The notes under the pieces are model-generated. The model was not told where the DNA came from, ran no database searches, and saw only the letters and a list, made by a program, of their open reading frames with translations. A stretch of 64,000 nt of DNA. It comes from Rubellicoccus peritrichatus. Lineage in GTDB: Bacteria; Verrucomicrobiota; Verrucomicrobiia; Opitutales; Cerasicoccaceae. The position numbers and the translations under genes are program-made. Of the stretch, positions 4,409-37,385 are shown piece by piece; position 1 is the first letter of the stretch, and the number at the start of each line of letters is the position of its first letter. The DNA lies in assembly GCF_033100135.1 (NCBI RefSeq), contig NZ_CP136920.1, positions 3,095,001 to 3,159,000 on the forward strand. Reading direction: 5' to 3'.

Positions 4409-7400
4409 ATGCCTTTGCTTGTTCGTTTATACAATATCCCGATAATCGCATTTGTCCTGCCCCTTTTTCTGCTCTTGGGTTGTGCTGACTCTACAAAAGA
4501 GGCTTCTGTGGCAGATATGCAGAGCGATGCGGCCAGCGCTCATGAAGAGTCTGGTATCGCGATAAAGGTTGAGCCGATTAGCTTTAACCGGGATGTCCGG
4601 CCGATCCTGTCTGAGAATTGTTACTTCTGCCATGGCCCTGATGAAACGAATAATAAGGCAGACTTGCGTTTGGACCTTCGTGATGCCGCTATCGCTTCAG
4701 GGGTTCTTGTTCCCGGTGATGCGGCGAACAGCGAGCTGGTAAAACGTATTATGACGGATGATGTCGATGATGTCATGCCGCCACCCGATGCACACAAAAC
4801 CCTCACTGATGAGCAGAAGGCGTTAATGGCACGCTGGATTGATGAGGGGGCTGAGTATGAAGGGCATTGGTCATACCAGCGAGTAGAGAGGCCGGACTAT
4901 GCTTCGATTGATGCAATTGTAAGTAACAATCTGAAAGAAAGGGGGCTGAACTTTTCGCCACCTGCGGACAAGGAAACTCTTGTACGTCGAGTCTATTTGG
5001 ATGTGACTGGTCTCCCTCCGACACCGGAAGAAGCGCGTGCTTTTCTCGATGACGAATCAACGGATGCCTACGAAAAACTCATTGATCGTCTGCTGGAATC
5101 TCCGCATTACGGAGAATATATGGCCATTTACTGGCTGGATGCAGTTCGCTTTGCCGATTCGGTCGGTTATCATGGAGATCAATCACGGGATGCCAGTGCC
5201 TTTCGTGATTATGTGATTGAAGCATTCAATGCGAATATGCCATTCGACCAATTTACGATCGAACAGATTGCTGGTGACCTGCTTCCGGACCCGACATTAC
5301 GGCAGCGTATTGCAGCGAGTTACAATCATCTCAATCAGGTCAGTAAGGAAGGAGGTATTCAGGATAAAGAGTACATAAAGAAGTATCAGGCAGAGCGCGT
5401 TCGTACCACATCGACTGCGTGGTTGGGGTCGACGTTAGCTTGTGCGGAGTGCCACGACCATAAATTTGATCCGTTTACCGCGAAAGACTTTTACTCATTC
5501 TCTGCATTCTTTGCGGATATCCTGGAGAAAGGGGCGTGGACCGGCAATGGGAGTTATCAGGAAGATATCCAGCCTTTTATCGAAAGCTTGGGTTTACATT
5601 TACCCAAGCAGACATCGAAGGCTGGGTTTGGGCTGACTCTTGAGGTGCCTAATCGCACATTTTTGCTTAATCAGGAAAAACATGAGTTGGAACTGGAAGC
5701 ACATAAGCAGCGACTGAATGCTGGAACACCCTCAGCACATGCAGAATTCGAAACATGGCTTGCCGCTGAAAAGCGTTTTCATGAACAAGGCATTCAGCGG
5801 ACCTATCAATTTGAAGTTAAAGATACGGAAAATGATATTGCGCCCCTTGAGCTTAACTTGCCAAGCCAGCCGATTAAGAGTATGAACTTCCAGGTTGCCT
5901 ATAATGATAAGGTCGAGAATAAGAAGGCACAGTTTGGCGTCGTCGTTCATTTTGATACGAAGAGTTATCTGCTGGCCTGGGGGGATGACATAGAAGTTGA
6001 GGGGCTTGAGAGGATTAAACAGAAACGCCCCTGGAGGTACAAAGCTGTCAATGATCAGAGCTTTAACTTAAGTGACCTAAAGCTTCCATCTGATGTGGAG
6101 ATGCTGAACTCGATTGAGTTTATTAGCAATGCGAACGAGGAGGGTGATCCAGCCTTTAAACTGCAACGTGTTGATGTAACAACCAGGCGATACGATGTGC
6201 CTAAAGGCACTCTTGAGGACGAGAATATTGCTTTAGTCGAAGAGTATTTGGCTGGCACTATAAGCGAAGAGAATAACACAAATTTAAGACACAAGTTTTT
6301 TGAGAAACATGCGAGTAGCGAAGATCTGAGTGAGGCGCAGGAAAAGTATTCGGAAGTCAACAATTTGCTGAATGGAAGTCGATACGTGCCAGCGACGGTG
6401 AGTGCCAAACCCCGGGAAATTAAAATTCTACCTCGTGGTAATTGGATGGATGAGAGCGGTGAAGTCGTGCTTCCCACGACACCTTCTTTTCTTCCTGATT
6501 TGCGTGCATCCACTGAAACGGAACGTCTGACACGCCTTGATCTTGCCCAGTGGATTGTCAGTCGGGAGAATCCCTTGACTGCACGTGCATACGTTAATCG
6601 CTTGTGGGCTCAGTATTTTGGGACGGCACTTTCAAGTGCACCAGAGGACCTTGGATTGCAGGGCGAATATCCAGTCTATCCTGAGTTGCTCGAATGGCTG
6701 GCTGCGGAATTTATGGAATCCGGTTGGGATGTGAAACGCCTTGTGAAGCAGATTGTCATGTCCCGGACCTACCGGCAGTCGAGTGAGGCGAATCCTGAGT
6801 TAATGGAATTGGATCCCTACAACCGATTGCTTGCGCGACAGACTCCGCGTCGTTTGCCGGCAGAGTCAATTCGTGATAACGCTTTGGCAGCCTCGGGATT
6901 GTTGGTTCGAAACATCGGCGGGCCAAGTGTAAGGCCTTATCAACCAGCAAACTACTACCAGCATTTGAATTTCCCCAGACGCAAATACGTCAGTGATACC
7001 AATCATGATCAGTATCGCCGAGGCGTATACACACATTGGCAGCGCACTTTTCTTCATCCAATGCTCATGGCTTTCGATGCGCCTTCGCGTGATGAATGTA
7101 CGGTGTTGCGGGCACAATCAAATACACCACTACAAGCATTGAATTTGTTGAATGATCCCACTTTTGTTGAAGCGGCAAAAGCATTGGCTGACAAACTTGT
7201 CACCTCGCAAACAGAGGACGAGTTGCGTTTGGCGGATGCCTTTGAAGCGGTTCTGATGCGTGAGCCATCAAAGAGGGAAATGGAGGTTATGCTGACTTTT
7301 CTTTCACGTGAACGCGAAAGGTTCGCTGAAGAGCCTGAGCGTTCCAAATCTTTCCTGAACGTAGGTCTCTATCGGGTAAATGAATCCATTCCCAAATCAG

Positions 7401-7468
7401 AAATCGCAGCGTGGACGAGTGTCTGTCGGGCAATCTTTAACCTTAATGAATCCATCACTAAATACTAA
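4409..7468 (+). CDS. PSD1 protein: lipoprotein c-type cytochrome with DUF1549/DUF1553
   Basis: 1019 residues. The N-terminus ends in a lipobox (LLLGC, Cys 25), then a planctomycete cytochrome C domain with haem motif CYFCH (residues 71-75), a DUF1549 domain with a second CAECH-DHK motif (345-349), a beta-rich middle insert, and DUF1553 in the C-terminal 300 residues (LARQTPRRLPAESIRDN, DAPSRDECTVLRAQSNTPLQALNLLNDPTF). The family is highly expanded in Planctomycetes and Verrucomicrobia and has no established reaction; a periplasmic redox role tied to polysaccharide use has been suggested. The DUF1501 gene follows after 6 bp, a nearly universal pairing. Upstream gap of 91 bp may hold an extra promoter. 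Confidence 0.9.
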   Translation: MPLLVRLYNIPIIAFVLPLFLLLGCADSTKEASVADMQSDAASAHEESGIAIKVEPISFNRDVRPILSENCYFCHGPDETNNKADLRLDLRDAAIASGVLVPGDAANSELVKRIMTDDVDDVMPPPDAHKTLTDEQKALMARWIDEGAEYEGHWSYQRVERPDYASIDAIVSNNLKERGLNFSPPADKETLVRRVYLDVTGLPPTPEEARAFLDDESTDAYEKLIDRLLESPHYGEYMAIYWLDAVRFADSVGYHGDQSRDASAFRDYVIEAFNANMPFDQFTIEQIAGDLLPDPTLRQRIAASYNHLNQVSKEGGIQDKEYIKKYQAERVRTTSTAWLGSTLACAECHDHKFDPFTAKDFYSFSAFFADILEKGAWTGNGSYQEDIQPFIESLGLHLPKQTSKAGFGLTLEVPNRTFLLNQEKHELELEAHKQRLNAGTPSAHAEFETWLAAEKRFHEQGIQRTYQFEVKDTENDIAPLELNLPSQPIKSMNFQVAYNDKVENKKAQFGVVVHFDTKSYLLAWGDDIEVEGLERIKQKRPWRYKAVNDQSFNLSDLKLPSDVEMLNSIEFISNANEEGDPAFKLQRVDVTTRRYDVPKGTLEDENIALVEEYLAGTISEENNTNLRHKFFEKHASSEDLSEAQEKYSEVNNLLNGSRYVPATVSAKPREIKILPRGNWMDESGEVVLPTTPSFLPDLRASTETERLTRLDLAQWIVSRENPLTARAYVNRLWAQYFGTALSSAPEDLGLQGEYPVYPELLEWLAAEFMESGWDVKRLVKQIVMSRTYRQSSEANPELMELDPYNRLLARQTPRRLPAESIRDNALAASGLLVRNIGGPSVRPYQPANYYQHLNFPRRKYVSDTNHDQYRRGVYTHWQRTFLHPMLMAFDAPSRDECTVLRAQSNTPLQALNLLNDPTFVEAAKALADKLVTSQTEDELRLADAFEAVLMREPSKREMEVMLTFLSRERERFAEEPERSKSFLNVGLYRVNESIPKSEIAAWTSVCRAIFNLNESITKY

Positions 7469-7474
7469 ATAATC

Positions 7475-8911
7475 ATGAGTGATTCCGAGGCATTCAAATC
7501 GATCAAAGCGGCTGTTAGTCGCCGTACCTTCTTAAAGCGCTCGTTGACCAGTATGGGGGCGTTTGCATTGGGCGACCTTTTGGCCTCTTCGGATGCACAG
7601 TCCGCCTGGAAGGGAACTTTTGGCGACGGTACCCACCATCTACCCAAGGTTAAGCGGGTGATTCACTTGTGCATGGCGGGTGGGCCCTCACATCTTGAGA
7701 CCTTTGACTACAAGCCTGAGTTGGAACGATTGAATGGACAGGCAATGCCTGAGTCCTTTACCAAAGGAGAACAACTGGCACAGCTCCAAGGCTCTAAATT
7801 GAATGTAATGGGACCCATATCCGGCTTTGAGCGGCGAGGCCAATGCGGGATGATGGTGAATGAACAGTTCCCGCACATCGGAAGTATCGCTGATGATATT
7901 GCCGTGGTTCGCTCAATGTATACCGAGCAGATCAATCATGACCCGGCGCATACGTTCATGAACACCGGTTCGATCATACCAGGTCGGCCATGCATGGGAG
8001 CGTGGACACTTTACGGATTGGGTAGTCTTTCGTCAAATCTGCCAGGTTATGTCGTGTTGACAAGTGTTGGTGGAGGGCAGGGGCAACCCATTTCCTCCAA
8101 GCAATGGCATAATGGATTCCTCCCCAGTAAATTCCAGGGCGTTCCATTGCAGTCGAAAGGAGACCCTGTTTATTATGTCAATAATCCCGACGGGATTCAT
8201 CATGAAGCACAAGGTGATTTGATTGATACCGTTAATCAGCTCAATCACATGCATTTGATGGAGAGCCATGACAAGGAAATTGCTGCACGCATCTCACAAT
8301 ATGAGCTCGCATTTCGTATGCAGACATCTGTTCCGGAATTAACAGACTTTAGTAATGAGCCAAAGCATGTCTTTGATCTCTATGGTTGTCAGCCAGGTGA
8401 TGGAAGCTTTGCTTCCAATTGCCTGATGGCACGTCGCCTTGCGGAGCGTGGAGTGCGTTTTATCCAACTATATCACAGAGGATGGGATCATCACGGAAAC
8501 ATCAGGCAGGGGTTTCCAGTTGCTGCCAAACACGTGGATCAGGGGACGGCTGCCTTGATTAAAGATTTGAAAATGCGTGGTCTTTTGGAAGACACTCTTG
8601 TGATCTGGGGTGGTGAGTTTGGCCGTACACCCATGAGCCAAGGGAGTGGCGAAGGAGCAGGACGTGATCATCATATCAAAGGCTTCTCGATATTCCTTGC
8701 TGGTGGCGGTATCAAAGGGGGGACGGTTTATGGCTCGACTGATGAACTTGGTTACTCAGCATTGGAAAACCCGACTTCAGTTCACGATCTTCACATGACG
8801 ATGCTCTATTTGCTCGGTGTTGATCACAAGCGATTGAATTTCCGTTTTCAGGGCCGTGATTTCAGGCTCACTGATGTGCACGGTAAACTGATCAAAGGAA
8901 TTCTAGCCTAA
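7475..8911 (+). CDS. DUF1501 protein, Tat-exported
   Basis: 478 residues with a twin-arginine signal (SRRTFLKRSLTSMGAFALG) and the DUF1501 hallmarks: CMAGGPSHLETFDYKP near residue 70, the metal-site-like stretch YHRGWDHHGN, and VIWGGEFGRTPMSQG near residue 380. DUF1501 belongs to the alkaline-phosphatase/sulfatase-like superfamily, so a periplasmic metal-dependent hydrolase acting with the PSD1 cytochrome is plausible, but no substrate is known. It follows the PSD1 gene by 6 bp and precedes the DUF2231 cytochrome by 14 bp, so the three are surely one transcript. Confidence 0.9.
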   Translation: MSDSEAFKSIKAAVSRRTFLKRSLTSMGAFALGDLLASSDAQSAWKGTFGDGTHHLPKVKRVIHLCMAGGPSHLETFDYKPELERLNGQAMPESFTKGEQLAQLQGSKLNVMGPISGFERRGQCGMMVNEQFPHIGSIADDIAVVRSMYTEQINHDPAHTFMNTGSIIPGRPCMGAWTLYGLGSLSSNLPGYVVLTSVGGGQGQPISSKQWHNGFLPSKFQGVPLQSKGDPVYYVNNPDGIHHEAQGDLIDTVNQLNHMHLMESHDKEIAARISQYELAFRMQTSVPELTDFSNEPKHVFDLYGCQPGDGSFASNCLMARRLAERGVRFIQLYHRGWDHHGNIRQGFPVAAKHVDQGTAALIKDLKMRGLLEDTLVIWGGEFGRTPMSQGSGEGAGRDHHIKGFSIFLAGGGIKGGTVYGSTDELGYSALENPTSVHDLHMTMLYLLGVDHKRLNFRFQGRDFRLTDVHGKLIKGILA

Positions 8912-8925
8912 AGCCTGCCATCTGA

Positions 8926-10422
8926 ATGAAACTGGATAAGACTATAATTTACTGCATCGTCGTAGTCTGTGTTATTACGAATATTTGTCTGCTTGGTGCT
9001 GCCTTCTGGTTAACCAGCCGACAATTCGAATCTCTGCCGACGATTCTTCTTCTTGGAGGTAATCTGCATCCCTTGCTGCTGCACCTGCCTATCGGGATAT
9101 TCATCTATGTTATCACTGCTGAAGTGATTAATCTGGGAATGGGTTTCACGAAGTCCCCCTGGCGAGTCACGGGCATACGTTTGGCCCTGGCTTTTGGTGT
9201 GGTCACATCATACCTCGCTGCAGCATTTGGGTTGATGTTGTACATGCGGGGAGACTATGAAGGCGAATTGATTCAGAATCATTTGTGGTGGGGAGTTGGT
9301 TTCGCAATCAGTGCGAGCGTGGTATTTATTGTTTCAATTTTGATTGATAATGCATCTTTGCGTTACCGTGTTGTGTTATTTTCAAGTGTAGCCCTGATGA
9401 GCGTTGCCGGTCATTATGGAGGACTTATTACGCATGGTGATCCATTGGATCCACTCTGGGAAGCCAGATCGAAACAAGCAGAACAAAAAACATTCCATGA
9501 GTTACTCCTCTACGAAGACGTTGTGACTCGTGTCTTCGAAACCAAGTGTTACGATTGCCATTCGGTTGGTAAGAAGAAAAAGGGCGGTCTTCTGATGGAT
9601 AGTCATGAGGCTTTATTGGCCGGTGGTAAGAAGGGACCTGCAGTTGTCCCAGGCTCACTGGATGAAAGCTTGATTGTGGAATACATCCATCTGCCTGAAG
9701 ATCACGAGCTTCATATGCCACCGGAAGGTAAACCGCAACTAACGAACGAAGAGCTTGCACTCATTGATGCATGGGTTGCTGCGGGTGCGCCACAATTGGT
9801 TAAACTTGCTGATGCAGAACTCCCGGACGAGCAATTTGAATGGGCGCGAGTTTACATGGCATCGAAGCCTGAGCCAGAAGCATTGCAGGTAGATACGATT
9901 GAGAGTCAAAATCTGGTTACATCAGAATCAAACCAAAACCTGGCCAAACATATTTTCGCACTTGAGAGTACCTTGGGTAGTTGCATTTCAAGGTATGGAC
10001 CGGCTGGGGATTCACTGGCGTTTTCTGCAGTCAATATTAGAGAAGCATTCGATGATTCAGCGCTAAACCAACTGAAACCCCTGATGCCGTACTTGATTGA
10101 TATCGATCTATCAAAGACGCAGGTTACTTCATCAGGTGTTGCCGAGATACTGAGAGATGCACGACAGCTTAAGAGGCTCAACTTATCCGCTACGGCAATT
10201 GATGATAACTGGGCGGCAGGGCAGACTTCAGAATCGCTGGAGCCGCTTGAGCATCTGATACTTTTCGAAACACGGACAACCCCGGAGAGCATTCCTTTTC
10301 TCAGCGAGTTAAAGCAGCTCAAGTCTCTTTATCTTGGCAGTACTGCCTTGGATAATAATGACTTGATGTCGCTTAGGCAGGCACTTCCAAATACCGAAAT
10401 TATTGGCCAAGCCTCCTTATAG
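8926..10422 (+). CDS. DUF2231 membrane protein with c-type cytochrome domain and leucine-rich C-terminus
   Basis: 498 residues in three parts. Residues 1-170 have a signal-anchor and about four further membrane helices with the DUF2231 motif (HPLLLHLPIGIFIYV). Residues 185-285 form a PSCyt1-type cytochrome with one CxxCH (CYDCH, 208-212) and a distal methionine candidate in HMPPEGKP. The last ~130 residues have leucine-rich repeats (LNQLKPLMPYLIDIDLSKTQVTSS). It probably passes electrons between the PSD1 cytochrome and the membrane, while the repeats may bind a partner. It is the last gene of the cluster; a small hairpin follows. Confidence 0.85.
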   Translation: MKLDKTIIYCIVVVCVITNICLLGAAFWLTSRQFESLPTILLLGGNLHPLLLHLPIGIFIYVITAEVINLGMGFTKSPWRVTGIRLALAFGVVTSYLAAAFGLMLYMRGDYEGELIQNHLWWGVGFAISASVVFIVSILIDNASLRYRVVLFSSVALMSVAGHYGGLITHGDPLDPLWEARSKQAEQKTFHELLLYEDVVTRVFETKCYDCHSVGKKKKGGLLMDSHEALLAGGKKGPAVVPGSLDESLIVEYIHLPEDHELHMPPEGKPQLTNEELALIDAWVAAGAPQLVKLADAELPDEQFEWARVYMASKPEPEALQVDTIESQNLVTSESNQNLAKHIFALESTLGSCISRYGPAGDSLAFSAVNIREAFDDSALNQLKPLMPYLIDIDLSKTQVTSSGVAEILRDARQLKRLNLSATAIDDNWAAGQTSESLEPLEHLILFETRTTPESIPFLSELKQLKSLYLGSTALDNNDLMSLRQALPNTEIIGQASL

Positions 10423-10436
10423 TTAAGTCGCAAAGA

Positions 10437-10454
10437 CTGGAAGATAGCTTCCAG
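10437..10454. terminator. Short hairpin between convergent genes
   Basis: CTGGAAG pairs with CTTCCAG around a 4-base loop, exactly between the DUF2231 cytochrome stop and the sulfatase stop (the stem ends one base before the sulfatase stop codon). No T-run on either side, so it is a weak terminator candidate shared by convergent transcripts. Confidence 0.45.
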
Positions 10455-11999
10455 CTATTCACTTGAAACCCGGTAAAATCCATTTGTGGACAATGCAGCA
10501 TCGTCTTTCACATAGTAGACATTACTACCGTCATCAGTGATCGTAAAATTCGCTACTGGCTGCCATGAGTCTTCAGTCAGTTCGGTGCTTTTTTGGAGCG
10601 TCAGATTGGCGTTGGCGAACCAACCGACTTCAGCAGTGAATTGATTGTCATTGTCCAGATATACTGCGTGGATTTGCGGAACATTCTGTAGTGATTCAAG
10701 TTCTGTTGTGAAATCAGTCAGGGCAGCTGATTCGTTGGAATCGAGTGTTCCTGTTAATCGATCATTGGTTTCGGACAGGCCGTCGGAGAGTGCGTAGAAT
10801 TCATCAGAGCGATCTGCATAGTTAATCCATTTATATTTGCTGTTGACGATGATAGCTCCTGGATTGGCACCACTGCTGGGAGAACGTGAATATGCTATTT
10901 CTCTGGTATGCACCGAGCTTGCTCCTGTTAGGAGAGGGTGAAAAGACTGGGAGTCAAAAACCAATTCAGAAGGCAGAATACTATTTGCATCTATAGCGAA
11001 GAGATCCAGGACGGTCTTATAAAGATCAACAGTATTAATGATTTCGTTGCTTACTGTGTTGTGAAGATTATTCGCTACAGCCTCTCCGGCAATAATCATT
11101 GGCACATTGACACCGCCCTCATAGAGCGAACCCTTGGCATGTCTGGTTGAAAAAGGTGACTGCACAACCGTCCCGGGAGAACCATTGTCACCAATAAAAA
11201 TGACAGTTGTGTTGTTTAAATCAACTGATTGCAGCAATCGCTCAATTTCAGTATCCATGGCTTGAACCATGGCCTCATAATACGGACGTGGGTTTGCCTC
11301 TATGTCTTCATTAGTTCCATCCAATGAGTCATAGTCATGTAAGTCGTTGTCTGGTTTGTGGAACGGAGTGTGTGGGGCATTGAATGCAACCCAGAGAAAC
11401 CAGTCATCTGATCCCTGCTCTGTAATCCAAGTGACTGCATCATTGACGATATCTGTCGTTGCGTAGGTTGTGTAGCGACTTGTGCTGACTCCATTAATCA
11501 CTTTGGTCCATCGGTTATAGCTGGAAAGGCCTCCGCCTAATGAGCCAGCAAAGTGTGGCCAGCCACCGATTGTATTGGGGATATCTGCAGTCTCATTTCC
11601 CAGATGCCATTTTCCCAATTGGGCCATTCGTGTTCCTATCGCACCAGAAGCCAGAATCGCCTCAGGTAAGGTAAACTCATTCGCTTGCAAAGTGTGCTCC
11701 CCCTCGTTGGGACCAATGACTCCGGTCCGAAAGCCATAACGCCCAGTCAGGATGGACGCACGGGTTGGTGAGCAAGTGGCATAAGCATAGGTGCGTTCAA
11801 AGCGAATTCCCTGCGCGGCCAGACTATCAATGGTTGGCGTTGGTGGAAGGGAAGCTGCCGGATCATTGTTGAAAGCACTCAGGCTATCCCGACCGAGATC
11901 GTCTGCGATAATTAACAGAACACTGCCAGCCTGTAGACTGCAGATGCTTGTCATTAGAGAGAGTAGTAGGTAGCTGAAGTGTTTGGGGGATGTATTCAA
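10455..11999 (-). CDS. S1-family sulfatase, secreted
   Basis: 514 residues with a signal peptide (up to about residue 24, SLQAG) and the sulfatase core. The formylglycine site is CSPTRASILTGRYG with Cys 76, so maturation needs a formylglycine-generating enzyme or anaerobic maturase, not seen in the window. Metal ligands include the Asp pair in IIADDLGRDSL (33-34) and GDNGSPG. The C-terminal ~60 residues form a beta domain with W-x-P-V and ending FYRV, common on verrucomicrobial exported proteins and similar in style to the protein at the right edge. The only usable start is TTG at 11999, as no ATG lies between it and the upstream stop; an internal ATG (residue 16) would shorten the signal peptide. 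Likely removes sulfate from algal or animal polysaccharides. Confidence 0.88.
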   Translation of the reverse strand: MNTSPKHFSYLLLSLMTSICSLQAGSVLLIIADDLGRDSLSAFNNDPAASLPPTPTIDSLAAQGIRFERTYAYATCSPTRASILTGRYGFRTGVIGPNEGEHTLQANEFTLPEAILASGAIGTRMAQLGKWHLGNETADIPNTIGGWPHFAGSLGGGLSSYNRWTKVINGVSTSRYTTYATTDIVNDAVTWITEQGSDDWFLWVAFNAPHTPFHKPDNDLHDYDSLDGTNEDIEANPRPYYEAMVQAMDTEIERLLQSVDLNNTTVIFIGDNGSPGTVVQSPFSTRHAKGSLYEGGVNVPMIIAGEAVANNLHNTVSNEIINTVDLYKTVLDLFAIDANSILPSELVFDSQSFHPLLTGASSVHTREIAYSRSPSSGANPGAIIVNSKYKWINYADRSDEFYALSDGLSETNDRLTGTLDSNESAALTDFTTELESLQNVPQIHAVYLDNDNQFTAEVGWFANANLTLQKSTELTEDSWQPVANFTITDDGSNVYYVKDDAALSTNGFYRVSSE

Positions 12000-12108
12000 T
12001 GTATCATCTGAAACCCCACTTTTGCCTGAATGTTACTCTTTACAAAATTATCCTTCGTATCACTTACCGATTGCGTGGTTTTTGATATTATCGCATTTTA
12101 GCCTCCAA

Positions 12109-12789
12109 ATGCTACATTTGCTGGCTCGGCATCGTCTGAAGTTTGGCCTCGCCGTTATCTTTGGCGCGGTTCTCATTGCGCTATTGATCATCTATGGAGG
12201 CTCAGCTTTTCAGTGGGCCTTGCAGGTGTCGGATATCGTGATCGATTGGATTCGTGATGCACCATTGGCTATATTTTATCTGGCTACAGCTTTACTACCT
12301 CTTACGGGCCTGCCGGTTGTTCCCTTTTACCTGGCGTCGGGTGCGGCTCATGGGCTGGCAGTGAGTCTGCTTGGTGTTGGAATCGCTTTGCTGATCAATC
12401 TTTCGATTTCCTATTATGCTGCCCGCTGGTTGCAGGGGCCGGTTGGGCGTCTTTTGGCCAGGGCAGGCTGGAAGGTTCCCAAGGTGCCAGAAGATCAGTA
12501 TGTCCGTTTTACCATTCTGGTTCGTTTAACGCCCGGCGCTCCACTCATGGTACAGAACTATATCCTTGGGCTGACTGGGACCCCATTTAAGACCTACATT
12601 CTGGTTTCTTGGTGCTCTGAAATGCTTATTGCTACAGGCTATATCGTGACAGGTGAGTCGATTTACGCAAAAAGCTGGGGCTTTCTTTTCGCGGGACTTG
12701 GCTTGATCGTGTTCGTTGTCTTGCTAACTCAGTTTCTAAGAGCTACTTTTAAAGATAAATCCACACCTGCGATTACGAAAGAATCATGA
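12109..12789 (+). CDS. VTT-domain (TVP38/TMEM64, DedA-like) membrane protein
   Basis: From the ATG at 12109 the product is 226 residues with about five hydrophobic segments. The VTT/SNARE-associated signature is visible: a re-entrant-like LPLTGLPVVPFYLASGAAHG, then G-x-G-x-A-x-x-x-N-x-x-S-Y-Y-x-A, and RLTPGAPLMVQNYILGLTGTPF matching the family's R-x-x-P-x-x-P-x-x-x-x-x-x-x-x-G. An upstream ATG at 11983 would overlap the sulfatase gene and add 42 atypical residues, so I reject it. Family members include eukaryotic scramblases TMEM41B/VMP1 and bacterial DedA lipid-carrier transporters. Its stop overlaps the next start as ATGA, so the two proteins are coupled. Confidence 0.85.
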   Translation: MLHLLARHRLKFGLAVIFGAVLIALLIIYGGSAFQWALQVSDIVIDWIRDAPLAIFYLATALLPLTGLPVVPFYLASGAAHGLAVSLLGVGIALLINLSISYYAARWLQGPVGRLLARAGWKVPKVPEDQYVRFTILVRLTPGAPLMVQNYILGLTGTPFKTYILVSWCSEMLIATGYIVTGESIYAKSWGFLFAGLGLIVFVVLLTQFLRATFKDKSTPAITKES

Positions 12790-15700
12790 GTAAAACATGG
12801 AAGAAGCGGCTGATCATTGCTGGCAGTGTCATTGGGGTATGCCTGATCATTGGCCTTGTTATCGTCTTTAACCCTTCATTCCAGAAATCACTGCTCGTAT
12901 CGCAATTGGAAAATCACTTTGATGAGGTGAGTTTGGATAGTTCTGCTTTTGGACCGTTTTCTGGCGAGATCAAAGGACTTCATGTGGCGACGGACGATTA
13001 TTCAATCAGCCTGGATTCAGTCACAGCCAAATACTCACCTTGGAGAATTCTTCTTCTACATGTTTATATCGAGGCATGCGACGTGGCTGGTTTGGAAGTG
13101 GACGTAAAGCAATGGCCTGAGAAAGAAATAGATGAAGCTGAGGAAGAGGCCAGGGAAGGATTCCCAGGTCTTTTGGCCCTGAGTAAGCTTGGAATCAAAT
13201 TGTCACTTAATGACTTCACCCTGGACGCGAAGGCAAAGGTCCCTGATTTTGAAATGGAAGTTGCAATCAAGGGTGGGGGACTTGCACCCGAGGAAACAGG
13301 CAATTTTCAACTGGAGCATCTGAAAGTTGCCCGACCAGGGCAGGAAGATTTGAAGCGGGTCAGTGCCATCGGTGATATTGCAGTCGACGAAATTGCATCT
13401 GGAGCCATTGGGAAGCTGGGCTGGGATATTAATGTGACTGCTGAAGGGACGATATTTGATACAGAGCCTAAGTTATCAATTGGTGGGAGTCTTTCTTCGG
13501 GGGAGGAGCGTGAGAATGATAAGGGCGATGAAATTCCAGCGATTGAATCGCTATTGTTGACATTAAAGGAAGTGTTGGAAACGCCTTCGAATTCGGACCT
13601 CTTTCAGCTCAATGCACAATATGATGGATCGACGTCGGAGTTTGCAGGCGATTTTCAAGTCAACGCTGACAATGAGACTCTGACTCCATTTGCGATTGCT
13701 TTGGAGTTGCCGATTTTTCGGGGCACTGGCGACGGCAAGCTGGAATGGAATCTGGATACCATGACTGGTGAATCGACCATGACCATGGATGTGTCGCTTT
13801 CTGATATTGAGCGGATGTCTTCCGTTTTAGCCAGTATTGGAGACCTCAAAGTTAAGGAAAAACACCACATCACTGCAACGCTGGATCAGCTTTCAGTTGA
13901 GAGCTTTGCGCTTGAGGTCACTCGTGCTGACGGACGCAAGGTTGTGGACTTGGCGACAAGCCGACCGTTGATTTTTAAGCGAATTGAGGAGGACAACAAA
14001 CTTGGTGATTTTGAGAAACCGTGGCTGTCGTTGGCTGTTGGAATTCCATTGGAATGGTTCGATCCAGTTTTGGGTGGGTTTGAACTGGAGGGAGCGAATG
14101 TTGAAGGTGATTTGAATTTTGCTGGAAGCCCGTTTGATGAAATGAGTATCACAGTCAGCGAGCCGCTTGAGGTGAATGGAGCAACCCTCTATCGGGCAAA
14201 AGAAAAGCTTTTGGGAGATATTTCCATGCGTATGACGCCAGAGGCCAAAGTGAGTCCCAAGCATTCAACCTTTGCCTTGAGTAAGGTTAGTATCTCCACT
14301 CAAAAGCAGGATCTTGTGAAGGGGGACTTTAAGGCAGGCTTGGATCTCAGTGAGAATGAAGGGTTTGCTGCAACTGCTGATGGCACTGTGGAGTTTTTTG
14401 TTCGCGGCTTGGTTGGCAAAGCCCTTGAGCGAAGCGAGTCAGCGAAAGGAGCCGTCGCGTTGGATGCCGCGGCCAGAAATAAGATAAAAATCATGTCCGA
14501 CAAGTTGGGGCCATCGAGCCTGAAGGCGACTTTCAACGTCACAGCCAAGCCGGAAGTGGTGACAGCTGAAACCTTTGAGATGGTTATCGCACAGACTGAC
14601 AAACCTCCGCTTATGGAAGCATCACTCTCTGATCCGGTTTCTGCCAAATTCAGTGGAGGCGAAATTGCTTTCAGCGGATTGGATAATGATTGGTTCTCAG
14701 CTGTGATCAGTGGCTTACCCGTTAGCGTCGTCGCCGTGTTCGTTGATGCCTTCGACCTGAGTGGCGACACCATTCATGGGAAATTGAAAATGGGTGCAGG
14801 TGAATCTCAGGGTAGTTTTGTTCTTTCGTTTCAGGAGCCTTTAACCGTGGGCCAGGTCAATTTGGCGATGGATGAGCAAGCCCTACTGCAAGCAGTGGAT
14901 GTATCAGTTCTTCCTTCGGTGCTTTACAAGGAGAATCAGTTGAACCTGAAGTTGGATGCTTTCTCTGCCAAAAGTGAAGACGGAACCCTTGCCGCAGGTA
15001 ACCTTACCGCTGATGCAGCGATCGATGAACTGTCGATCAAGGAAATTAATTTTACGCTCGATGGGCAATCGACACTCAACGCAGTTTTAACACAGCCAGT
15101 TACAGCACCATATGTTAAATCGTCGTTGCCGGAAGCAGTGAATGGTGTGCTTAAATTGGCCGGGAAGACGGACTTGAAGAGCGTTGATCTGGATCGCCTG
15201 GAAGCGAGTTTAAGCACGGGCGAAGCCAATGAAATTCTACATTTTGGAACGACCAAGCCACTTCAGGTTTCGAGCTTTGCTTTAACTGACCTTGAAACGA
15301 TCCTCAATCAAGTTGATCTTCAGGCAACGAATTCGCTGAAGGCGTTTCCGCTTTGGTTGCCACTTGCTTTTGTCGAGACAAGTCCAGCCAGTGTGACTGC
15401 GGGAACGCTCAATGGAACGACTGAGCTAACCGTGGGAGAGGGGAGTGCGAGCATCATTGGCAAGGATGTTTTTCAGCTGCAAAAACTGAATGTTTCCCTG
15501 TCAGATAAGCCAGCAATCAAACAGGTGTCTGTTGCCTTGATGCCATCGCTCAAGCTGGATTCTACTTTGGCTACGATTGAGGCGAAGGATATTCAAGTAT
15601 CGATGGGTGGATCAAAGGCACAGCCGGTAAAGGGGGCTTTTTCCTCTGAAGTGGAGTGGTTGGAACCGATGCCCGTCAAGACACTGAACGTTGAACTGGC

Positions 15701-17321
15701 AGGTGATATCAAGCCTTGGTTTGACCAGCCAATTGTGCCTGATAATGGCGTGAGCGGAGGACAGTTTTCCTTTGCTACAACTATAAAGGAAGAAAGAACT
15801 GGAACAATTGAAGGCAAATTGAACAACCTTGCCTTCTACGGGGACAAACCGCTGCTCAAATTGGCGTCTCTTGATGGGACCGTGCAGATGGATTTGGACA
15901 GCGGACAATACAAAGGAAATGTACCTGTGCTGATTGAGACAGAGCGTGGTGTTTCGGATTTCAATACCACTTTTCAATATGAAATAAAAGATACACGGGA
16001 TCAACTGGCGGTTGATATCAAGAGTAAGTTGGTTCGGCTTGCTGATCTGGAGAAAATCATCAAGCACTTCCTCACTGCCAGAAAACCAGCACCTAAGGTC
16101 GTCGAAAATCGTGGTATTATGACGGACACTGAAGCGAGTTCGCGTGAAAAGAAGCCAATGTATGAGCAGGACAATGCATCGGAAATCGCCAGGTTGAAGG
16201 AGAAAGATAATGCGAAAGTGGTGGAAGAACCAATATGGGAGACGCCGCCTGAAGAAATTGATTTTAGCAAACTGAGTGCTGATACATCGCCGCCGAAAGT
16301 TGATGCTTTCGATGAATCACCTTTCTGGTTGATGCTCCCGGCTGATTCCACAGTTGATTTTGCAATAGAAGATGTTCGCTACACTGACTTTTTAAGCCTG
16401 ACTGCCGTTGCGGGTCAGACCAAGGTTAATGCAGGTCATATTGGTCTGGATTCCTTTACTGCTAGTTTTCGTGAAGCATCAATCAAGGCAAAAGCTGGTT
16501 TGGAATGGCGCCCGGAAAATGGCAATAAACCCTACGATCTTGATGCCGATTTTCATGTAAAACAGTTCAATCTAAGTGAGTTTTTCGGGGCACTTGTTCC
16601 TGGTGATAAACCACGAGTTGAAGGCCTCTTTCGAATGACTGCGACAGCAGATGGGGATTTCCCAAATTTGGAGTCTGCCAGGAATTATGTAAAGTTCCTG
16701 GTGGATCTTGAAAGTAAGAGTGGGGTCTTTAGAGCGATTCCGCCTGGGAGTGAGTTGGCTCAAGGATCTTCAACCATTGCAGCCACAGCCGGTGAAGTGC
16801 TTTCATGGATACCGACTGGAGGTGTCGGACTTGGGGCTCTTTCGCGTCTTGTTTCCTACATGCGCGAAATTCCGTATAAGTTAGTGCATATTCGCGTGAC
16901 GCGGGAGGCCGACCTGAATGTAAAAGTCGAGAAAATGGAAGTTCGCAGTGAGGAGATGCTTATTATCGGCCGCGGCGGTATTCTTTATGAGGAAGGGGTC
17001 GATATCCTGCAACAGAAGCTGGATTTAACGACTGAAATGGATGCCGTGGGAGAAATGGCGGCGATTCTCAGTGGTTTGGGACTTTTGAAGGATGAGCGGG
17101 CAGAAAATGGCTACTGGCATGGTTTTGACTTCAGGATATGGGGTACTTTGGAGGAGCCAAAGTCCAACTTCGACCAAATCGTGACGCAGGCCAGCTCTGG
17201 TGCCTTGACTCGGAACATAACCAACCCATTCCACGGTATTATGGGCAATATCAAGCATCAGGGAGAGAAGATTCAGGTTCCGGATGACGATGACGAACAA
17301 GACCCCGAAGATGTTAACTAA
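12786..17321 (+). CDS. Giant AsmA/TamB-like protein
   Basis: 1511 residues: one N-terminal membrane anchor (about residues 9-30, RLIIAGSVIGVCLIIGLVIVF without the first residue), then a very long series of beta-strand repeats with alternating polar/hydrophobic residues and no cysteines or catalytic motif, and a C-terminal AsmA-like region (about 1370-1490) with RGGILYEEGVDILQQKLDL, ILSGLGLL and IWGTLEEPKSNF. This is the layout of inner-membrane-anchored periplasmic AsmA-clan proteins (YhdP, TamB, YdbH) that form a hydrophobic groove carrying phospholipids to the outer membrane. It begins inside the stop of the VTT gene (ATGA). A charged, likely disordered insert lies around residues 1110-1170. 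Exact subfamily uncertain. Confidence 0.8.
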   Translation: MSKTWKKRLIIAGSVIGVCLIIGLVIVFNPSFQKSLLVSQLENHFDEVSLDSSAFGPFSGEIKGLHVATDDYSISLDSVTAKYSPWRILLLHVYIEACDVAGLEVDVKQWPEKEIDEAEEEAREGFPGLLALSKLGIKLSLNDFTLDAKAKVPDFEMEVAIKGGGLAPEETGNFQLEHLKVARPGQEDLKRVSAIGDIAVDEIASGAIGKLGWDINVTAEGTIFDTEPKLSIGGSLSSGEERENDKGDEIPAIESLLLTLKEVLETPSNSDLFQLNAQYDGSTSEFAGDFQVNADNETLTPFAIALELPIFRGTGDGKLEWNLDTMTGESTMTMDVSLSDIERMSSVLASIGDLKVKEKHHITATLDQLSVESFALEVTRADGRKVVDLATSRPLIFKRIEEDNKLGDFEKPWLSLAVGIPLEWFDPVLGGFELEGANVEGDLNFAGSPFDEMSITVSEPLEVNGATLYRAKEKLLGDISMRMTPEAKVSPKHSTFALSKVSISTQKQDLVKGDFKAGLDLSENEGFAATADGTVEFFVRGLVGKALERSESAKGAVALDAAARNKIKIMSDKLGPSSLKATFNVTAKPEVVTAETFEMVIAQTDKPPLMEASLSDPVSAKFSGGEIAFSGLDNDWFSAVISGLPVSVVAVFVDAFDLSGDTIHGKLKMGAGESQGSFVLSFQEPLTVGQVNLAMDEQALLQAVDVSVLPSVLYKENQLNLKLDAFSAKSEDGTLAAGNLTADAAIDELSIKEINFTLDGQSTLNAVLTQPVTAPYVKSSLPEAVNGVLKLAGKTDLKSVDLDRLEASLSTGEANEILHFGTTKPLQVSSFALTDLETILNQVDLQATNSLKAFPLWLPLAFVETSPASVTAGTLNGTTELTVGEGSASIIGKDVFQLQKLNVSLSDKPAIKQVSVALMPSLKLDSTLATIEAKDIQVSMGGSKAQPVKGAFSSEVEWLEPMPVKTLNVELAGDIKPWFDQPIVPDNGVSGGQFSFATTIKEERTGTIEGKLNNLAFYGDKPLLKLASLDGTVQMDLDSGQYKGNVPVLIETERGVSDFNTTFQYEIKDTRDQLAVDIKSKLVRLADLEKIIKHFLTARKPAPKVVENRGIMTDTEASSREKKPMYEQDNASEIARLKEKDNAKVVEEPIWETPPEEIDFSKLSADTSPPKVDAFDESPFWLMLPADSTVDFAIEDVRYTDFLSLTAVAGQTKVNAGHIGLDSFTASFREASIKAKAGLEWRPENGNKPYDLDADFHVKQFNLSEFFGALVPGDKPRVEGLFRMTATADGDFPNLESARNYVKFLVDLESKSGVFRAIPPGSELAQGSSTIAATAGEVLSWIPTGGVGLGALSRLVSYMREIPYKLVHIRVTREADLNVKVEKMEVRSEEMLIIGRGGILYEEGVDILQQKLDLTTEMDAVGEMAAILSGLGLLKDERAENGYWHGFDFRIWGTLEEPKSNFDQIVTQASSGALTRNITNPFHGIMGNIKHQGEKIQVPDDDDEQDPEDVN

Positions 17322-17504: not shown

Positions 17505-17702
17505 ATGAGCGAAGAAACCACAGCACCTTCTCAAAGCAAAAAGCCCGAAGATCTCGATTTCAATGATGTCGAAGCTCTTTCACGCCACGTGACAGACACG
17601 GGTAAGATTCTTCCGCGTCGTATTACCGGACTGACTGCGCTGCAACAGCGCCGCGTCACCAAGGCAATCAAGCGTGCTCGGAATCTGCTTCTAATGAAGT
17701 AA
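17505..17702 (+). CDS. rpsR: 30S ribosomal protein bS18
   Basis: 65 residues. The core matches bS18: [26 protein letters not shown] followed by [18 protein letters not shown] (given here in two parts, both intact). It binds S6 and 16S rRNA in the small-subunit platform. The family is usually ~75 residues; this one has a short N-terminal tail. It stands alone, without the usual neighbours rpsF, ssb or rplI, and is followed 40 bp later by the Sua5-type gene, another translation function. No Shine-Dalgarno site; the leader is pyrimidine-rich. Confidence 0.95.
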
Positions 17703-36475: not shown

Positions 36476-37270
36476 TTAAAGGCGTGGCAGAGTTAATCCA
36501 CCGTCGACCAAAATGACTTGCCCAGTAGAGTAGGGGAAGTCACCACGTGCGAGTGCGGTGACTGCCTTACCCACGTCAGCTGGGAATCCCCAACGCTTTG
36601 TTACGCAAAGTCCGTCTTCGATCATCTTGTCATATTTATCTGTGACGCCGGAAGTCATGTCTGTTTTAGTGACGCCTGGGCGTATTTCGTAAACAGGAAT
36701 GTTGTATTCTCCGAGTCGTGCAGCAAACAGGGCAGTCATCATGGCAATGCCTGCCTTGGCGACGCAATATTCGCCACGATTGACAGAGGCAACGGTTGCC
36801 GAGACAGAACCAACATTGATCACTCCGTAAAAACCGTTAGGGTCGTCAGCTCGCTGTTCGACCATCCAGTTGGAAGCACTTTGCGTGAGGAAGTAAGGCC
36901 CCTTCAGATTGGTTCCTACAACGTAATCGAAACTCTCTTCCGAGGCCTCAAGGATGTCTTTACGCTCCTTCGGTGCAACTCCGGCATTATTGACGAGTAC
37001 ATTCAAGCGCCCGAACTCGGACTTGATCTGAGCGAGCATAGCCGCTCGTGCTTCTGCCGAACCAATATCTCCACGACAGTAAACGACCTTTGCCCCAAGT
37101 GCTTCAAGCTTTTCGATTGGCTCGCTCACTTGTTCTTTGGGTCGCATGCCGTTGATGGCGACATCAAAGCCAGCTTTCGCCAGATGTTCGGCGCAGCCAA
37201 AACCAATACCGCGACTTCCGCCGGTTACCAGGGCCACGGGCCTTTTGTTTTCTTGGGTTGAATTGTTCAT
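36476..37270 (-). CDS. SDR-family oxidoreductase
   Basis: 264 residues from the ATG at 37270, which has AGGAA a few bases upstream; a longer frame to 37357 is not supported. NAD(P) motif VTGGSRGIGFG near residue 14, NNAG in VLVNNAGVAP, catalytic Ser in INVGSVSA and Tyr/Lys in GEYCVAKAG. Looks like the FabG/KduD branch. As the last gene of the leftward uronate cluster it is a candidate 4-deoxy-5-hexosulose uronate or sugar reductase, though a fatty-acid ketoreductase cannot be ruled out from sequence alone. Confidence 0.88.
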   Translation of the reverse strand: MNNSTQENKRPVALVTGGSRGIGFGCAEHLAKAGFDVAINGMRPKEQVSEPIEKLEALGAKVVYCRGDIGSAEARAAMLAQIKSEFGRLNVLVNNAGVAPKERKDILEASEESFDYVVGTNLKGPYFLTQSASNWMVEQRADDPNGFYGVINVGSVSATVASVNRGEYCVAKAGIAMMTALFAARLGEYNIPVYEIRPGVTKTDMTSGVTDKYDKMIEDGLCVTKRWGFPADVGKAVTALARGDFPYSTGQVILVDGGLTLPRL

Positions 37271-37385
37271 GGGTTCCTGTGTTTTTCGATTTTTTGTGTC
37301 GCTGGGTTCAGGTCTAACTGCATTCTCATTTTTTTGAACACAAGAACATGTTAACACTTGAACTCATTAACTCATATCCCAGCGC

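Follow-up and report, generated by a model that had tools for sequence, protein, structure and literature searches.

Does the verrucomicrobium Rubellicoccus peritrichatus encode, in one small operon, a lipid scramblase together with the long protein that would carry the lipids onward? Eukaryotes have such a partnership, between the scramblases TMEM41B/VMP1 and the bridge-like lipid transporter ATG2 (PMC10127716; statements credited here and below to papers cited by PMC number follow excerpts of those sources), and the initial annotation of our locus proposed a bacterial version of it. The window analysed is a 64,000-nucleotide stretch (G000:C1:3095001-3159000) of a 5.8-Mb genome in one contig. 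On its forward strand the gene for a 226-residue VTT/DedA membrane protein (12109..12789) precedes the gene for a 1511-residue AsmA-like protein (12786..17321), here called the giant. Both reading frames are open, and the stop of the first shares four bases, ATGA (12786..12789, forward), with the start of the second; this overlap, already reported in that annotation, is identical in a second genus. The reading we prefer, a dedicated two-protein unit for intermembrane lipid transport in a diderm bacterium, falls in our estimate a little short of an even chance; it is plausible and partly supported, and narrower than the initial annotation had hoped, with two genera so far.

Conservation of the overlapping gene pair

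A four-base overlap is ordinary for operons and alone says little. In the window, 3 of the 27 adjacent same-strand gene pairs overlap (-1, -4 and -8 bases; list of 45 window genes), and two AsmA-clan genes of E. coli, in the pairs tamA-tamB and ydbH-ynbE, each have a four-base overlap with their neighbour. The evidence for our pair comes from genome G002, which belongs to a different genus within the family (its record is Verrucomicrobiia bacterium isolate Co_bin.226; L067), where the two genes again lie side by side with the same 4-base overlap (L038: VTT gene 9967-10647, giant 10644-15182). The VTT match is 62% identical, the G002 protein having 226 residues if started at the GTG aligned with the window ATG, and the giant match is 42% identical, spanning residues 4-1507. 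Flanks differ: G002 has menC and an AMP-binding (menE-like) gene downstream, with a decarboxylase gene and genes without a Pfam match upstream, and in a comparison of its 20-kb region (clusters at E 1e-8, half of the shorter protein covered) the only other protein clustering with window proteins was L038 5162-5911, with window 36476-37357, far from the pair. An overlap kept at 62% and 42% identity amid different flanks is beyond chance. In G002 the giant stop also overlaps the menC start by four bases (L038 10644-16159), which is not so in the window.

The window unit looks like two genes, because a divergent sulfatase gene lies upstream of the VTT gene and a gap of 183 bases separates the giant from the ribosomal protein S18 gene downstream (17505-17702), itself followed by a Sua5-type gene. 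Promoter and terminator scans found sites no more numerous than in shuffles. Unpaired copies of both kinds of gene occur in G000 and in G002 (xseA-linked VTT genes in L048 and L052; AsmA-like genes in L037 and L039), so the paired copies are probably extra ones. The host encodes LptD and, apart from the pair, a TamB of its own (C1:3166197-3166937, the genome's sole match to PF04357 at E 0.001), on which basis we take it to be a diderm; it also holds a 266-residue PF05170 protein and six PF09335 matches in all. The pair would thus appear to add to the ordinary outer-membrane machinery, not to replace it.

The VTT protein and its loops

The VTT assignment made by the initial annotation holds: the protein has hydrophobic segments, its PF09335 match is borderline by score in hmmscan (33.2 bits, E 7.9e-8, cut-off 33.9) and above cut-off in a six-frame search (37.3 bits), and all seven aligned relatives match PF09335 at E 0.01. 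We aligned it with E. coli YdjX, YdjZ, YqaA and YqjA (21 rows), using the COG labels that we take these four to carry. The first re-entrant loop region (residues 64-80, 12298..12348, forward) has no acidic residue at its tip, where YqaA and YqjA read LPGNSE and LPGDS. The second (residues 139-154, 12523..12570, forward) reads RLTPGAPLMVQNYILG, is identical in G002 over these residues, and is COG0398-like, as seen on comparing RLTPGAPLMVQNYILGL in the window with RLIPLFPYNIQNYAYGL in YdjX; its tip carries, as in YdjX, one arginine together with an NY motif. COG0398 proteins lack the acidic residues and one or both of the basic ones, resemble eukaryotic phospholipid scramblases, and have been described as putative phospholipid scramblases and the closest bacterial kin of TMEM41B/VMP1 (PMC10127716). 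Flipping of undecaprenyl phosphate is tied there to acidic residues plus two arginines, and Todor et al. consider COG0398 unlikely to perform it (PMC10127716). Judged by alignment, the loops of the window protein appear to be of COG0398 type, without the acidic tip of the undecaprenyl-phosphate flippases.

In a tree of VTT proteins the window and G002 proteins were sisters (96/96) and stood beside three Verrucomicrobiaceae proteins in a five-row group (97/95). A 12-row Verrucomicrobiota group, made up of these five and the xseA-linked proteins, was separated from nine rows that include the four E. coli proteins (98/98; the tree was midpoint-rooted and several of its branches are very long). 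Identity to the window protein is 38-43% for the three Verrucomicrobiaceae proteins, which are arnT-linked, and 26-32% for the xseA-linked ones (five rows counted). The xseA- and arnT-linked genes (L048, L052, L068-L070) belong to the same VTT subgroup as ours but have other neighbours. A VTT domain was also seen in an 868-residue protein (L095 9123-11729) that combines it with an alpha/beta hydrolase and a weak ATP-grasp-like part (RimK, E 7e-5).

Kinship and modular build of the giant

The initial annotation called the giant AsmA/TamB-like, and it is through its homologues that a distant kinship stands. It matches a G001 protein (L041) at E 1e-23, and that protein scores 47.8 bits against PF05170, over the cut-off; of the 11 aligned members of the family, five reach E 1 or better against PF05170, the best E 1.3e-12 (47.8 bits). 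By hhalign, the giant family profile matches E. coli TamB residues 33-113 with probability 81, eight non-AsmA E. coli controls reaching at most 0.6. By hmmsearch the same profile gave TamB 17.4, AsmA 10.4, YdbH -0.6 and YhdP -2.5 bits, with controls at -3.4 or below; a profile from the two giants alone gave AsmA 1.0 and TamB -0.9 bits. From these Pfam, hhalign and hmmsearch comparisons we call the giant AsmA-like, a distant AsmA relative. Membership in PF05170, TamB, YhdP or YdbH was considered and not assigned; in hmmscan there was no PF04357 (TamB) match, and an LmeA match of 16 bits was set aside as weak. Viral contigs scanned with the giant held no relative.

The protein has one clear N-terminal hydrophobic helix by hydropathy (residues 9-27, 12810..12866, forward; helix 3-28 in the model), followed by a helix-plus-strands region that is a candidate chorein-N/TamB-N-like domain (residues 31-110, 12876..13115, forward), the part of the family (A2) aligned to TamB by hhalign. 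Along the whole protein hydrophobicity alternates in a strand-like way (lag-1 autocorrelation -0.162 vs. a shuffle standard deviation of 0.027). Self-comparison revealed a repeat offset of about 200-220 residues (A1, probability 96.2; A2, 99.8), which we divided into module 1 (residues 408-628, 14007..14669), module 2 (629-844, 14670..15317) and a shorter, more diverged module 3 (845-990, 15318..15755), all on the forward strand. Modules 1 and 2 are clearly related (hhalign probability 94.5) and module 3 weakly so (33.7 to module 2, 18.0 to module 1, the hidden Markov model that detects it having been built from module 3 too). A second hydrophobic stretch, residues 637-655, falls within module 2. 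The C-terminal region (residues 1176-1480, 16311..17225, forward) is conserved and common to shorter relatives. The C-terminal part of the giant is its best-conserved one, residues 1301-1500 being 64-68% identical in the two giants. A C-terminal tree placed the giant among proteins from other families of the phylum (92/88) and apart from its paralogue in the same genome.

We then counted modules across the relatives with a model built from the two giants (i-E-value <0.05; lengths are those of stop-to-stop frames), so that three copies in each giant are given by construction. Of the other 43 proteins, 16 had two copies, 23 had a single copy and four had none. Fifteen of the 16 two-module frames measure 1182-1304 residues, although the weaker match falls below 21 bits in nine of these 15; the sixteenth (L116) has 1072 residues and a second match of 6.3 bits. 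Of the 23 one-module frames, 18 measure 939-1088 residues; another two (689 and 751) are short or truncated, and three lie off the ladder (1247, 1273 and 1330), the 1247 frame holding a long unaligned upstream stretch. Frames without a module measure 783, 1206, 1250 and 1278 residues. Taken together, the window (14007-15755) and its relatives (L037-L137) form a length ladder of one, two and three modules of about 215 residues, with exceptions and weak matches. Bridge length may thus grow by modules, and the stepwise count within one family would offer a handle on what sets it. One could go further and suppose that a single lineage of verrucomicrobia locked two additional proteins, a VTT protein of COG0398 type and a lengthened AsmA-like bridge, into one coupled operon, that bridges of this family gain length in steps of one, two or three modules, and that the three-module form has its own dedicated lipid scramblase; so complete a history we hold to be rather doubtful.

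A proposed mechanism and known systems

Under the preferred reading, the giant would be anchored in the inner membrane through its N-terminal helix and extend into the periplasm, its body forming a long, mostly beta-strand and probably groove-shaped bridge of AsmA type, lengthened by the three tandem modules, with the outer membrane as the likely far end. The COG0398-type VTT protein would sit beside the inner-membrane end, perhaps in contact with the giant, and let phospholipids, the presumptive cargo, cross between leaflets; such crossing would keep the inner membrane balanced when lipid leaves or reaches its periplasmic leaflet.

Like TMEM41B/VMP1-ATG2, the locus links a membrane protein that has a VTT domain to a long protein of bridge type; further points of likeness are the COG0398-type loops and some resemblance of the modelled giant N-terminus to Vps13, Atg2 and LPD-3. 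The window pair, however, is linked by gene coupling alone and concerns other membranes and compartments. With YhdP, TamB and YdbH, which are AsmA-clan phospholipid transporters of E. coli, the giant shares one N-terminal membrane helix, a long and probably beta-rich body, PF05170 matches at the level of the family and a family N-terminus similar to that of TamB; it differs in its greater length and its three modules of about 215 residues, without a passing PF05170 score or a PF04357 match, and the gene coupled to its own encodes a VTT protein, not TamA or YnbE.

A partnership or contact between DedA and AsmA proteins has been proposed before, for COG1238, by Todor et al. 2023 (PMC10127716). 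Our reading has in common with theirs a DedA/VTT protein that supplies an AsmA bridge, but here the VTT protein is of COG0398 type and the genes form an overlapping pair. In P. aeruginosa, overproduced PA5244 (YohD, a DedA protein) or AsmA proteins reduce CtpA activity, which supports a DedA-AsmA link indirectly (PMC12569750). The folP region of Neisseria was considered as a precedent and set aside: in some species dedA and asmA both occur there but are separated by other genes (PMC1431543). A further paper, as excerpted, concerns another flippase family (PMC12713373). A search of the open-licence literature, a scope outside which most subscription papers and preprints fall, found no published VTT/DedA-AsmA gene pair among the top matches listed. 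The DedA-AsmA idea itself is thus already in print, and what is new is an unusually long AsmA-like protein with a COG0398-type VTT partner gene. As a natural two-gene unit the locus would be a compact test object for whether a scramblase serves an AsmA-type bridge at the inner membrane.

Evidence against the preferred reading, and alternatives

Three bodies of evidence weigh against a dedicated lipid-moving unit: the scores and models of the giant, the neighbours of the closest VTT genes, and the rarity of the pair. To begin with the giant, its own sequence matched no AsmA family in the hmmscan search of Pfam (nothing at E 1), and in the six-frame search it stayed below the PF05170 cut-off (18.7 bits vs. 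29.8), so that the AsmA/TamB-like label given initially is right only in the sense of remote kinship. The family profile reached only a weak hhalign probability of 7.0 with AsmA, and 0.2 each, at control level, with YhdP and YdbH. AlphaFold models of the giant, made from two-row alignments, had a mean pLDDT of 35.3 for residues 1-800 and 54.5 for residues 1-300 (block means 55-78 over 31-110), the latter low-confidence model placing a membrane helix and a short helix before long strands. Foldseek with the 1-300 model returned nothing at E <=0.001 (best BPI, 0.033). VIA-align on the same model gave a mixed picture, with Z values of 8.6 for LPD-3, 8.1 both for a TamAB entry and for an N-terminal fragment of Vps13, and 6.8 for Atg2, but also 8.2 and 7.7 for the barrels OmpC and OmpT and 6-7.3 for many other barrels; Z values of such size may, as the tool warns, reflect merely a common arrangement. 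To us the resemblance to bridge proteins in these fold searches counts as weak support.

The TamAB entry among these matches and the TamB-similar family N-terminus could be cited for a giant whose chief role is to scaffold the assembly of outer-membrane proteins, a role also proposed for TamB, with the VTT protein aiding its insertion or the local membrane state. We regard this as very improbable: the Pfam-scanned near neighbours include no TamA/BamA-type gene in either genome, the host has a separate TamB, and the giant lacks a PF04357 match.

The nearest VTT relatives, in three Verrucomicrobiaceae assemblies, adjoin an arnT-type gene and not an AsmA gene: the VTT gene lies directly 5' of genes for an ArnT-type transferase and a DegT-family aminotransferase (L068 3414-6966, L069 5786-9464 and L070 1976-5654; Pfam on L069 only). 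In these neighbours we see the strongest objection to interpreting the substrate simply as phospholipid. The sugar that ArnT uses is linked to undecaprenyl phosphate. Our VTT protein might accordingly handle a polyprenyl-phosphate-linked substrate instead of bulk phospholipid, the giant carrying that glycolipid, or supporting its passage, to the outer membrane; the close grouping of the arnT-linked and paired proteins in the tree speaks for this, as does the Pseudomonas DedA protein that supports aminoarabinosylation of lipid A (PMC12893004). The loops speak against it, having neither the acidic first-loop tip nor the second arginine to which such flipping is tied (PMC10127716), and among the Pfam-scanned near neighbours in the window and in G002, three of the latter without a Pfam match, there is no glycolipid gene. 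On balance such a substrate seems unlikely.

Rarity is the third matter. Within the family the pair was present in 2 of 10 genomes and absent from the other eight, and among 54 relatives it stood side by side in G002 only. A draw of 372 genomes from the order held full-length giants in two, G000 and G002 (E 1e-35), and a partial match in G003; a profile of the paired VTT protein scored these two genomes at 456 bits in the same draw, the next hit dropping to 150. Draws from the phylum (387) and class (384), evidently without G002, contained a full-length giant in its own genome only. All three draws are samples, and further pairs may exist. A scan of named genomes with two short peptide patterns, which distant relatives would escape, gave four loci. 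We also surveyed stretches around AsmA-like loci and a few others with VTT and AsmA-like profiles made in this analysis (the VTT profile left out row G000_4623_fused, drawn from an 868-residue protein; two regions each come from G000, G002 and G022, and a contig edge cuts several regions short). An AsmA-like gene was found in 45 of the 47 regions, and in four of these 45 there was also a VTT gene. Coupling between the two was seen at two loci and was absent from the other 43, so adjacency to the other is not a general requirement for either protein. Pairing is thus not confined to one genome, and it is rare. Of the bacterial scramblase-bridge pairing first suggested, the coupling kept in a second genus, the COG0398-type loops, the AsmA kinship and the N-terminal helix survive, but not its generality: we see no widespread counterpart of ATG2-TMEM41B.

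The same counts favour a shared operon without a shared mechanism, in which the extra VTT and AsmA-like copies became neighbours in an ancestor of the two genera and were kept by the same conditions or by inheritance, each doing a separate envelope job. Besides the restriction to two genera and the 43 uncoupled loci, VTT genes of the phylum adjoin several partners: xseA, an arnT-type gene and a DUF547/DUF2064 cluster. It is harder to square with the exact overlap, retained though the flanking genes differ, and with extra copies of both kinds lying side by side in both genomes; we give it appreciably less than an even chance. If the pair is indeed incidental, it is a caution against inferring mechanism from a single coupled gene pair.

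Other neighbourhoods of VTT and AsmA-like genes

The PF05170 model fails to detect some members of the family to which the giant belongs, hence the separate survey of 45 loci. Searched with the Pfam models, 96 genomes yielded 89 PF05170 rows from 60 genomes and 147 PF09335 rows from 75; rows of both kinds occurred in 44 genomes. Six PF05170 rows had a VTT row within 30 kb, two of them at about 24 kb, and the window pair was the only coupled one; widespread VTT-AsmA pairing in the phylum was thus looked for and not found in these 96 genomes. The nearest relatives of the giant by the C-terminal tree are L106, cut at its 5' end, and L107, which has no VTT gene in the roughly 1.4 kb upstream. In six compared regions, including the unpaired copies of G000 and G002, the AsmA-like gene follows a gene of the cluster that in L037 is DUF2851, and five window-related VTT genes adjoin a gene of the cluster that in L048 is xseA.

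In G142 (L088 4587-10052) a same-strand run comprises VTT, DUF547, phosphorylase-superfamily, DUF2064 and DUF748 genes. A DUF748 homologue was found by tblastn in none of nine other regions with related VTT genes (L092, L140-L147), and we treat that run as incidental, not as a case of VTT-AsmA pairing. In G041 and G097, which belong to one genus (L089 6951-12175, L090 1035-6148), a VTT and xseA-like pair lies divergently to a run that closes with NUDIX and AsmA-like genes; in G041 the pair and the run are about 1.5 kb apart. Elsewhere in the window, positions 4409-10422 hold a run of PSCyt1/PSCyt2/PSD1, DUF1501 and DUF2231/cytochrome genes, which we take to be of the kind known from the Planctomycetes-Verrucomicrobia group.

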